Source: a bacterium
Lineage (GTDB): Bacteria; UBP6; UBA1177
Direction: 5' to 3'
NCBI GenBank assembly: GCA_017961325.1
Contig: JAGCXM010000035.1
Span: 1-62,067, forward strand
Length of the DNA stretch: 62,067 bases
Part shown: positions 42,295 through 46,023 of the stretch, piece after piece
Numbering within the stretch: position 1 is the stretch's first letter
How the letters are laid out: each line of letters opens with the position of its first letter
Made by a program: the position numbers and the translations under genes
Notes under the pieces: model-generated
Told to the model about the DNA's origin: nothing
The model's database searches: none
Seen by the model: only the letters and a program-made list of their open reading frames with translations

Positions 42295-43586
42295 AAAGTA
42301 AAATCTCAATAATTTCAGTAATTTTTGTTTTTCTGGCTTTTACAGTTTCGTGCGGCGGATCTTCGAAACAGGATGAAGAACCGAAAGATGACACCGATAC
42401 GGAAACAGCCGACGGAGCCGAAATGTCCGATAACGATGAAACAAGCGATGATGCCGAGTATGACAGCGGCAAGGCAGACGTTTCTTCAATCAATTTTAAT
42501 ATTCCGGAAGAATCTTCGCTGGTTGCCGATACTTCGGGACACTTTGCATTTCCTGATGTCGTCAGGCTTCAAAACGGCAGACTGATGACCGTTTTCAGAA
42601 GCGGCAGCAATCACGTCGACAAAAGCGGTTTGATAGTCGCTGCTTTTTCCAAGGACGGAATAAACTGGGATGATCCAGATATTCTGCTGGATGACCCTGC
42701 GATTGACGACCGAGACCCTTCAATTGCTGTTCTTTCGGACGGAAGAGTTGCGATGAACTGGTTTAAATACCGTTACCCTGCGGATAATTATTCCGAGCCT
42801 TGGGTCCATCACCTGTTTTTTGCGGTTTCCGACAAAAGCGGATTCAATTTTGACGAACAGATTCAGGTTGATACGGGCATCTTCGACTATTCCGAAACGT
42901 CAACTTTGGATGAAAACGGCATCTGGCTTGATGAAAACGGCAACGAAATCACAGTCACGGCTTCTTCGAGTTCAGTGATAGAACACGATGGAAAAATAAT
43001 CATTCCCGGCTATTTCGGTGACGCCCTCAACAGAAAAGAGATGGGAAAAACTCCGAAAACAAAAGTCGTTCTCTATGAAAGCGCCGACGGCGGCAAAACG
43101 TGGACGCCGAACGAAGTCAAAGCCGGAATCGATGGAACAACATGGCTTCAGGAACCGGCATTGCTCAAAGTTACCGATACCCGCTGGATCATTCAGGCAA
43201 GAACGGCCAAAGGTGCAAGTCCGAGCAACAAAGGCGATCTTGTCCAGACTGTTTCGGAAGACGCCGGCAAAACCTGGTCGTCGTATGAAAGTCTGGGACT
43301 GGTCGCTCACGCACCGGAACTTCTGAAACTTGAAAACGGTGTTATCGTCAGCTCTTTCCGGTGGCTCGACTGGGGAATAAATGTGAACAGGGAAGCCGTT
43401 TCAATGATATACTCGCTCGACGGAGGTAACACATGGTCGGATGTCCTCGAAATCCTTGACTGCGGTACGGCTGAATGCGGATATCCCGGCATGGTTGAAC
43501 TTGAAGGGAACAAAATTCTCGTTGTATACTACACGCCGGGCGGCAGAGCAATCGAATCAAAAATAATAACGTTCGAAGCCGAATAA
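42285..43586 (+). CDS. BNR/Asp-box sialidase-like lipoprotein
   Basis: 433 residues. Lipobox FTVSC (Cys23), an acidic linker to about residue 66, then a six-bladed propeller-type domain. Asp-boxes SADGGKTW (266-273), SEDAGKTW (324-331) and SLDGGNTW (377-384) are clear, with a weaker SKDGINW at 122-128. The RLQNGRLMTVFRSGSNH strand carries an Arg that could belong to the sialidase carboxylate-binding triad; the full catalytic set was not confirmed. It could remove sialic acids from host glycans or act as a non-catalytic glycan binder. The 10-base overlap with the preceding lipoprotein suggests coupled expression. Confidence 0.85.
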   Translation: MQIKSKISIISVIFVFLAFTVSCGGSSKQDEEPKDDTDTETADGAEMSDNDETSDDAEYDSGKADVSSINFNIPEESSLVADTSGHFAFPDVVRLQNGRLMTVFRSGSNHVDKSGLIVAAFSKDGINWDDPDILLDDPAIDDRDPSIAVLSDGRVAMNWFKYRYPADNYSEPWVHHLFFAVSDKSGFNFDEQIQVDTGIFDYSETSTLDENGIWLDENGNEITVTASSSSVIEHDGKIIIPGYFGDALNRKEMGKTPKTKVVLYESADGGKTWTPNEVKAGIDGTTWLQEPALLKVTDTRWIIQARTAKGASPSNKGDLVQTVSEDAGKTWSSYESLGLVAHAPELLKLENGVIVSSFRWLDWGINVNREAVSMIYSLDGGNTWSDVLEILDCGTAECGYPGMVELEGNKILVVYYTPGGRAIESKIITFEAE

Positions 43587-43636
43587 ACGAATTTTCCTTT
43601 AAACAGAAAAATCAAAAAACATCTCTTGTTTTCGAA

Positions 43637-43664
43637 CAAAAAAAACGGGGGCCGAAGCCCCCGC
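43637..43664 (-). terminator. Rho-independent terminator of ino1
   Basis: On the minus strand a CGGGGGC/GCCCCCG stem with a TTCG loop is followed by eight or nine T. It lies 23 bases after the ino1 stop and may also act on rightward transcripts. Confidence 0.87.
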
Positions 43665-43686
43665 GAAAAATCAAATCCCGAAAGAA

Positions 43687-45015
43687 CTAGTCTTCTTTCG
43701 AATAATCGTAGTATTCGTTGCCGAGATGCGTGATAAGCTCTTCGCCCATCATGTATCTGAGAGTGTTTTTCAGCTTGGTGTGCTGAATGAATACATCGTG
43801 TTCCGGATAGAGACCTTCTGCAACCATCGGGGACTTGAAGTAGAAGCTCATCCATTCCTGGATTCCGTACATTCCAGCTCTTCTTGCAAGGTCGATGAAG
43901 AGAAGCGTGTCAAGAACTACCGGAGCTGCAAGGATGGAGTCTCTGCAGAGGAAGTTTACTTTGATCTGCATCGGCATGTTGAGCCAACCGAAAATGTCGA
44001 TGTTGTCCCATGCTTCCTTGTCGTCTCCTCTCGGCGGATAGTAGTTGATGCGAACTTTGTGGTAGTAGTTGCCGTAAAGTTCCGGGTAGTTTTTAGCGTC
44101 AAGGATTGTGTCGAGAACGGAAAGTTTCGAAACCTCTTTGCTCTTGAAGTTAGCCGGATCGTCAAGAACTTCGCCGTCGCGGTTTCCGAGGATGTTGGTC
44201 GAGAACCAGCCGTTGAGGCCGAGCATTCTGAGTTTGAGTCCGGGTCCGATTATCGTCTTCATCAGGGTCTGACCGGTTTTCCAGTCTTTTCCTGCGATAG
44301 GCATTTTCATTTTGTCTGCAAGTTCCTGGATCGCTCTGTTGTCAACAGTGCAGTTCGGCGAACCGTTTACATAGGGAAGTCCCATTTTAAGAGCAGCATA
44401 AGCATAAACCTGACTCGGCGCAACTTCAGGATGGAAACCGTCTTCCATAGCCTTTTCGAAGTCAGCAAGCGTATTGTGGATTTCGCACGGTTTATGGTAA
44501 GCTTCGGTCGAAGCGTTCCAGATCATAACAGCTCTTGAGCAGCCTTTTTCCTTCATCGTGTTTTTGATGTCGTCCATAAGCTGATGAGCGAGATCCATGT
44601 AGTTTTTGCCGGTTTTTACGTTCGGACCGTCAAGTTTCTTGACCCATTCGTGGTTGAAAACAGCCTTCATCGGTTTGATTGCGAGCATTTCGTCCTTTAC
44701 CGGTTCAAGGTCTTCCGAGCGGACTACAGCTGCGTGTTTAGCCGATTCGTACATATTGTCTGTGAAAATATCCCAGCCTGCAAATTCAAGGTCGTTGATG
44801 TTTGCGAGCGGAACGAATTCCCTAATGAGCGGAGAACGGTTTTCCGTTCTTTTGCCGAGTCTGATGTGTCCCATCTGAGTAAGAGAACCGATAGGTTTGT
44901 GAAGTCCTTTCCTGATGTTGAAGATACCGGTAAGAACCGTGGATGTGATTGCTCCCATACCAACGAAGAAAACCAACATTTTGCCGTCTGCGGGCTTGAT
45001 TTCACGTGCTGTCAT
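43687..45015 (-). CDS. ino1: Inositol-3-phosphate synthase
   Basis: 442 residues. Converts glucose 6-phosphate to inositol 3-phosphate (also numbered 1-phosphate) with NAD. Visible blocks: FFVGMGAITSTVLTGI for NAD, MIWNASTEAY, YVNGSPNCTVDN, AGKDWKTGQTLMKT with catalytic lysines, and GWFSTNILGNRDG. The product feeds inositol lipids or osmolytes. The ATG has GGAGG just upstream. Its leader contains a near-perfect sigma-54 promoter with an inverted repeat further upstream, so expression probably needs an activator of the NtrC type. Confidence 0.93.
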   Translation of the reverse strand: MTAREIKPADGKMLVFFVGMGAITSTVLTGIFNIRKGLHKPIGSLTQMGHIRLGKRTENRSPLIREFVPLANINDLEFAGWDIFTDNMYESAKHAAVVRSEDLEPVKDEMLAIKPMKAVFNHEWVKKLDGPNVKTGKNYMDLAHQLMDDIKNTMKEKGCSRAVMIWNASTEAYHKPCEIHNTLADFEKAMEDGFHPEVAPSQVYAYAALKMGLPYVNGSPNCTVDNRAIQELADKMKMPIAGKDWKTGQTLMKTIIGPGLKLRMLGLNGWFSTNILGNRDGEVLDDPANFKSKEVSKLSVLDTILDAKNYPELYGNYYHKVRINYYPPRGDDKEAWDNIDIFGWLNMPMQIKVNFLCRDSILAAPVVLDTLLFIDLARRAGMYGIQEWMSFYFKSPMVAEGLYPEHDVFIQHTKLKNTLRYMMGEELITHLGNEYYDYSKED

Positions 45016-45081
45016 AAAAAAACCTCCAATAAAGATATAAAGTGAATAATGAACTATAAAAAAGCAAAAGCCCGGTTAGGA

Positions 45082-45098
45082 AGCAAAATGCGTGCCAA
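45082..45098 (-). promoter_or_regulatory. Sigma-54 promoter of ino1
   Basis: The minus strand reads TTGGCACGCATTTTGCT. It matches the -24/-12 consensus TGGCACR-N4-TTGCW at every defined position. The -12 GC lies about 68 bases before the ino1 ATG, giving a leader of about 55 bases. No sigma-70 promoter of similar quality is seen in the same gap. Confidence 0.82.
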
Positions 45099-45141
45099 CC
45101 TTTAAAACGGCATTTAAAGATGAAAAAACGGCTGAAAAGGC

Positions 45142-45190
45142 AAAATTCTTTAAGTTTTCAAAATTAAAAAAATAAAATGTAAAGAATTTT
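45142..45190 (-). repeat. Perfect 11-bp inverted repeat upstream of the sigma-54 site
   Basis: AAAATTCTTTA (45142-45152) and TAAAGAATTTT (45180-45190) are exact reverse complements with 27 bases between. They lie 45-110 bases upstream of the -24 box, where enhancer-binding proteins of sigma-54 systems usually bind. The AT-only stem does not look like a terminator. Confidence 0.55.
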
Positions 45191-45225
45191 TACAAACGCA
45201 CAAAAACGCTGTCTCACGGGAATCG

Positions 45226-46023
45226 CTATCTGACACAACGGACTGAATATTTTGTTGACTTGTAGACACTGTTCACATACGCCTGTTCAAAATAGACATA
45301 CCATGCGGAACTCGTGCTATCCGACCGAGTGGACGAAGACCAGAGCAGAATATTGTTGTTGTCTCCTAATTTGCTGTAATATCCGTCAATCGTTCCGTTA
45401 AGAACATCACAATAGCAATCATCACTCCAGCAGCTGTGAGACAAACAGTCAGGATCTTTTACCGCACAGGGACCGTCCGTTACCGAACCGCAATTATTAA
45501 TAAGTGTCCTGAGTTCATTGATATTCGGCAGCCGCCAGCCGCTCAATTCACCCTCTGAATAGCCGTTGCAATACTCCATAGCACTATCCCAGTCCATACG
45601 ATCCGATGATTTTGCAGACCAAATGAGACCGCTTGTCAATTCTACGCACGGCGTATCCGATGATGTACTGCATTCCGGCAGAGACGATGACGAAATTGAT
45701 ACGCAGAAAGAACCTGTCCATTTATAGCCGTATTTACATCCGCATTTGTAGCTTTCATTTTCCGTTTCACACTCTTTTGTTGAATTGGCTATACTTTCGC
45801 ACGGATTCGGGTTGCACGGACCTGCCGGTTCGCCGTTATCGTCTTCGTCTGCCGACTCCGTGTTTTCGTCGTCATCCGTTGCAGGATCATCTTCATCCGG
45901 TGTTTCCGGCTCGGTATCGACAACGTCGTTGTCTGTTTTTTCATCGCTTTTCTTGCTGTCGCTGCACGAAACGACAAAAAGCAGTGCTGCGAAAATCGCA
46001 CAAATTGCAAAGATTTTTTTCAT
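45226..46023 (-). CDS. DUF1566 lipoprotein with EGF-like module
   Basis: 265 residues. Lipobox FVVSC, an Asp/Glu/Thr linker (ETPDEDDPATDDDENTESAD), and an EGF-like module (CNPNPCESIANSTKECETE then CGCKYGYKWTGSFC) related to that of the 8332 protein. One DUF1566/Lcl domain follows (CVELTSGLIWSAKSSDRMDW, SGWRLPNINELRTLINNC), ending YSVRCVR. The C-terminal domain closely resembles the 3092 protein. AGGAG ribosome site before ATG. A leader hairpin, a strong promoter and repeat copy B lie upstream. Confidence 0.87.
   Translation of the reverse strand: MKKIFAICAIFAALLFVVSCSDSKKSDEKTDNDVVDTEPETPDEDDPATDDDENTESADEDDNGEPAGPCNPNPCESIANSTKECETENESYKCGCKYGYKWTGSFCVSISSSSLPECSTSSDTPCVELTSGLIWSAKSSDRMDWDSAMEYCNGYSEGELSGWRLPNINELRTLINNCGSVTDGPCAVKDPDCLSHSCWSDDCYCDVLNGTIDGYYSKLGDNNNILLWSSSTRSDSTSSAWYVYFEQAYVNSVYKSTKYSVRCVR

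Follow-up and report, generated by a model that had tools for sequence, protein, structure and literature searches.

Which signal controls transcription of ino1, the gene for myo-inositol-1(3)-phosphate synthase (MIPS), was the question raised by a stretch of 62,067 nucleotides (hereafter the window) from a bacterium of the UBP6/UBA1177 lineage. Inositol production is rare in bacteria, and a preliminary description of the window had proposed that a near-perfect sigma-54 promoter drives ino1 and that inositol is made on demand, as an osmolyte or an envelope lipid precursor, under a bacterial enhancer-binding protein. The lineage genomes compared here are ruminant-gut (rumen/gut) MAGs, and the organism is known from MAGs alone. 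G000 denotes the window's genome, G015 to G018 represent other genera of the same family, and G019 represents another family. The features of the ino1 locus are the following:

43645..43664, minus strand: intrinsic terminator, GCGGGGGC-TTCG-GCCCCCGT followed by T7, at the downstream end of the ino1 transcript
43687..45015, minus strand: ino1, 442 aa, Bacteroidetes-type subfamily
45023..45027, minus strand: ribosome binding site GGAGG, read in the sequence and conserved in the alignment
45071, minus strand: expected transcription start, predicted from the -24/-12 geometry, 12 nt past the C of the -12 GC
45082..45097, minus strand: sigma-54 promoter TGGCACGCATTTTGCT (-24 TGGCACG, 4-nt spacer, -12 TTGCT), a perfect match
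45178..45194, minus strand: candidate enhancer (UAS) TGTAAAAATTCTTTACA, TGTAAA-AATTC-TTTACA, a perfect 17-bp palindrome of 6-5-6 form

The ino1 gene and its promoter

The ino1 protein contains both MIPS domains (PF07994, NAD_binding_5, E=4e-86; PF01658, Inos-1-P_synth, E=3e-32). Its closest solved structure is 7NWR (E=9e-158, aligned over residues 4-427 of 442), which is BT_1526, the MIPS of Bacteroides thetaiotaomicron (PMC9246714), a member of the same subfamily; the actinobacterial mycothiol INO1 family (TIGR03450) was rejected, with a score of 23.4 bits against a cut-off of 638. BT_1526 lies within an inositol-lipid gene cluster (PMC9246714), whereas the UBP6 ino1 stands alone. The strong terminator and the convergent gene beyond it suggest that ino1 is probably transcribed alone. 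In codon bias ino1 ranked first among the 242 ORFs with 200 codons or more in the genome stretches examined (ENC 37.2, above EF-G), and its codon adaptation to EF-G was higher than that of EF-G itself, suggesting a highly expressed protein; "on demand" would therefore probably mean strong expression when activated, and not a low level.

The site TGGCACGCATTTTGCT was the sole match with 0-1 mismatches to TGGCACG-N4-TTGCW in the window, and the only perfect one in the 2.35-Mb genome. Its -24 GG and -12 GC are 10 bp apart, in the TGGCAC-N5-TTGC frame of sigma-54 promoters (in Desulfovibrio vulgaris the consensus is tGGcacg/tTGCt; PMC4641369). The promoter described earlier was thus recovered at 45082-45097, while position 45098, which had been counted in, is one extra base upstream. 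As had also been stated, the site reads toward ino1 from within a long gap (210 bp, 45016-45225; the preceding gene, at 45226-46023, has the same orientation), and 66 nt separate it from the ATG (45015). A sigma-54-class site arose in 0.15% of dinucleotide shuffles of this 210-bp region. A start at 45071 would give ino1 a 56-nt 5' UTR.

Matches with two mismatches were at chance level in the window (7 seen vs 7.7 expected), so only the perfect ino1 site was counted, and those with one mismatch showed no enrichment in the whole genome (9 vs 17 in the control). Since counts of degenerate sites from one genome were uninformative, conservation was used as the test instead. The genome scan that the preliminary description had suggested, made with the lineage consensus TGGCAY-N5-TTGCW, gave five sites in 2.35 Mb, compared with three for the reversed control, all five preceding a correctly oriented gene. 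A domain search of the genome revealed a single rpoN (PF04552, E=5.3e-55).

Conservation inside and outside UBP6

The pattern GGYAY-N5-TTGC was present before ino1 in all the genus members with upstream sequence, as well as in G015-G018 and G019, and started about 70-82 nt ahead of the gene across the UBP6 members checked. The site was kept in seven lineage representatives, with a shuffle probability below 0.6% in each; ino1 itself was 97-99% identical in most genus members. Of the 66 homologues of ino1 compared outside UBP6, which came from Acidobacteriota, Methylobacterium, Bacteroidales and other groups, none had a strict sigma-54 site within 300 bp, indicating that sigma-54 control of ino1 is specific to the UBP6 lineage, and two Bacteroidales homologues checked for a sigma-54-like site had none.

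A partial literature search yielded no paper containing both "inositol phosphate synthase" and "sigma-54", and the word "inositol" was absent from the sigma-54 regulon papers compared, in agreement with the earlier view that RpoN control of ino1 is unusual.

A palindromic candidate enhancer

The palindrome TGTAAAAATTCTTTACA, located 80 nt upstream of the -24 element, had been missed by the preliminary description and extends the finding beyond a single promoter. It was aligned before ino1 in the genus relatives, the other genera and the second family, being perfect in G000, G007, G015 and G019 and carrying one mismatch in G016 and G017; in G018 the sequence upstream of ino1 is cut by the contig end and the palindrome region is missing. 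No palindrome of equal quality arose when the 210 bp before ino1 were dinucleotide-shuffled (0/4000). Perfect copies of TGTAAA-N5-TTTACA numbered three in the genome (before ino1, on C14 and on C33), and that at C14:48581 was dropped because it sits within a DnaK-like gene. This conserved palindrome occupies the place of the enhancer-like site upstream of a sigma-54 promoter, and is probably the enhancer of the ino1 promoter.

A second target and the type II secretion operons

The C33 copy of the palindrome lies 41 nt upstream of a sigma-54 site (TGGCATATTTTTTGCT, C33:65594) directed at a gene for a HisC-like aminotransferase. The main hisC is on C10 and gives the better match; the HisC-like gene is an additional copy, 27% identical to it. 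Site and palindrome precede it in G000, G015, G017 and G018, and in G016 the gene has a sigma-54 site with TTTACA/TGTAAA half-sites; the aminotransferases of G015-G018 are 65-71% identical to the G000 copy. Matches to a combined half-site-plus-promoter pattern were noisy and were retained only where the palindrome was complete or the target conserved. In the sister genera the HisC-like gene is followed, on the same strand, by genes for an ECF sigma factor and a zinc-finger anti-sigma-like protein:

L103:9888-12516: HisC-like / ECF / zinc-finger locus
L104:8037-10689: HisC-like / ECF / zinc-finger locus
L102:7212-9852: HisC-like / ECF / zinc-finger locus
L105:4946-7600: HisC-like / ECF / zinc-finger locus

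Two type II secretion operons have the same sigma-54 site, TGGCATTTGAGTTGCT, and, upstream, a palindrome that differs from the ino1 one, TCAAAT-N5-ATTTGA:

L277:7827 and 7890 (G000:C26): type II secretion operon, gspG onward
L278:7774 and 7837 (G000:C2): type II secretion operon, PDZ protein and gspD onward

These two further sites before type II secretion genes agree with the view that sigma-54 governs mainly the cell exterior (PMC3162934). Another activator, perhaps PilR, probably acts through their palindrome, so that two or more activators that recognize distinct sites seem to be active.

Candidate activators of ino1

Four genuine sigma-54 AAA+ activators, with the sigma-54 interaction domain and a GAFTGA-type loop, were found in the genome, which bears out the enhancer-binding protein invoked earlier; weaker AAA+ matches were left out of the count, having a ClpB-, chelatase- or MoxR-type look as judged from their sequences.

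G000:C33: PilR, in a type IV pilus gene cluster, with a Fis-type HTH
C7: response regulator with a Fis-type HTH
G000:C23: response regulator of 475 aa, with receiver, AAA+ with GAFTGA and Fis-type HTH
L099:8112-9584 (G000:C42): FHA-domain activator ending just past the AAA+ lid, lacking an HTH, with orthologues in the family's other genera

The C23 regulator gene adjoins that of a 666-aa histidine kinase, with multiple membrane spans followed by the kinase part, and the activators of three genus species share about 75-88% identity with their G000 counterparts. With 0-1 mismatches allowed, five copies of TGTAAA-N5-TTTACA were found in 72 kb around C23-type genes vs one in the 218 kb surrounding genes of the PilR, C7 and FHA types, and this clustering at the C23 regulator/kinase pair points to C23 as the likely cognate activator. 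In G019 a perfect copy precedes the C23-type gene by 109 bp; the C23-linked copy of the genus has one mismatch, falls within the first codons of an upstream gene that overlaps the activator gene, and may be a coding coincidence; the C23-type genes of G015, G016 and G017 had none. On these grounds the C23 regulator is probably the activator of ino1. That the sigma-54 promoter is real and is activated instead by PilR or by the C7 response regulator is a less probable alternative. In its favor, each of the two has a Fis-type HTH, genes of the C7 type occur throughout the order, and the PrsR model (see below) gives C23, PilR and C7 similar scores that do not separate them; however, the palindrome was absent near any PilR gene and occurred near C7-type genes as one imperfect copy, and TCAAAT-N5-ATTTGA at the type II secretion operons would be a more natural target for PilR.

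The palindrome could also be the operator of an unrelated regulator, such as a repressor, with the sigma-54 promoter using another enhancer. Palindromes of 17-bp size suit many regulators, and the copies near C23-type genes have no sigma-54 site, as for a repressor site or autorepression; but at ino1 the palindrome stands 80 nt clear of the promoter itself, and in several genera a sigma-54 site accompanies it before ino1 as well as before the HisC-like gene, which makes this explanation improbable. That the -24/-12 match is a chance one, and that another sigma factor transcribes ino1, is very improbable given the conservation in seven representatives and the lack of sigma-70-like promoters in 43550-45300 (0 found vs 2.6 in shuffles), even though the codon bias of ino1 looks constitutively strong, an uncommon trait in an on-demand gene.

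The explanation that we favor as a whole, with a probability of roughly 0.65, is a C23-driven sigma-54 circuit at ino1 and at the HisC-like gene that yields inositol phosphate in bulk. RpoN-RNA polymerase would bind the -24/-12 element (45097-45082), and an NtrC-type response regulator, likely C23, would bind TGTAAA-N5-TTTACA (45194-45178) and, once phosphorylated by the 666-aa membrane kinase, open the ino1 promoter; the HisC-like paralogue would be driven by the same circuit. With the circuit on, inositol phosphate would be made in bulk, its most likely use being in an envelope lipid derived from CDP-inositol or in di-inositol phosphate. The earlier promoter call was correct, and its interpretation, partly supported by these sequence comparisons, appears right in the main point; the single promoter has become a small conserved regulon with a putative enhancer and a candidate activator. 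This represents a concrete sigma-54 regulon for a lineage known here from MAGs alone, suggests that inositol production can be under enhancer control, and identifies a cis-element and a candidate activator open to testing in vitro.

Comparison with known systems

The arrangement at ino1 resembles NtrC-type sigma-54 systems in its palindromic 17-bp putative enhancer, its receiver-AAA+-Fis HTH candidate activator and its -24/-12 promoter, although inositol synthesis was not among the targets in the regulon papers compared. A closer parallel is the PEP-CTERM box of Proteobacteria which, as described by Haft et al. (2006, PMC1569441), is a 17-nt motif ending in TTTACA, upstream of PEP-CTERM genes and separated by 32-92 nt (mean 63) from a -24/-12 site that lies about 71 nt from the start codon, and is linked by prediction to the regulator PrsR and the kinase PrsK. 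Compared by length, 3' end and spacing, this PrsR box is like the ino1 palindrome (17 nt, TTTACA end, 80-nt spacer), and the site-to-start distances are alike (66 nt at ino1). Both sets of promoters serve mostly one-gene transcripts and have long upstream gaps, and in both cases the regulator and kinase genes are adjacent and alike in plan, with a receiver-AAA+-Fis HTH regulator and a kinase part preceded by many membrane spans. The targets differ, being PEP-CTERM proteins for PrsK-PrsR, and inositol phosphate synthase and the HisC-like enzyme in UBP6.

Assignment of the C23 pair to these families was rejected, as both proteins scored below the cut-offs (regulator, TIGR02915, 359.7 of 502.6 bits; kinase, TIGR02916, 89.9 of 300 bits), and the N-terminal part of the kinase had no match among the NCBIfam models. 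The ino1 circuit would therefore work like the PrsR box by analogy, with no claim of membership in PrsR/PrsK. A more tentative thought, which we consider possible but rather doubtful, is that a PrsR-box-like sigma-54 circuit of Proteobacterial surface proteins was rewired in this candidate phylum to bulk inositol synthesis, with one membrane kinase setting envelope or solute inositol together with the HisC-like enzyme and, in the sister genera, the ECF sigma factor beside the HisC-like gene.

Fate of the inositol

The genome encodes one inositol-monophosphatase-family protein and six CDP-alcohol phosphotransferases. One of the latter adjoins a nucleotidyltransferase (G000:C33, ~41.9-43.8 kb; L282 / L197) whose best solved relatives are CTP:inositol-1-phosphate cytidylyltransferases, and this pair is a possible CDP-inositol branch; another, on C6, shows a match to the DIPP-synthase portion of the bifunctional enzyme of archaea. 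None of the NCBIfam matches pointing to inositol enzymes reached its curated cut-off. A CDP-inositol route to an envelope lipid or to di-inositol phosphate is plausible, and the cytidylyltransferase-like and DIPP-synthase-related enzymes would fit an osmolyte or an envelope lipid alike, the two uses named in the preliminary description.

Other sigma-54-like sites

A sigma-54-like site, TGGCATATCTCTTGCA (L276:7762; G000:C29:22761), lies about 100 bp before a thiamine-phosphate-synthase-like gene, with no recognised palindrome nearby. Another, TGGCAAGATTTTTGCT (L016:1501; G000:C31:15449), lies between rpoN and a divergently oriented lipoprotein gene and points toward the latter. An element for which a 14-mer search of the window's own genome gave no match was observed in relatives, in a convergent gap that contains no gene:

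L107:8949-9165 (G013:C42): convergent-gap locus
L108, minus strand from 9299 (G009:C25): convergent-gap locus
L109, minus strand from 8866 (G012:C28): convergent-gap locus

It consists of a sigma-54 site (GGCAC-N5-TTGCT), then a conserved stretch of ~200 nt (GGTCAACACA, ACACCAACACTAC) and, after it, the terminator GCCCCTTCGGGGGCATTTTTTTT, and is a candidate sigma-54-driven small RNA.
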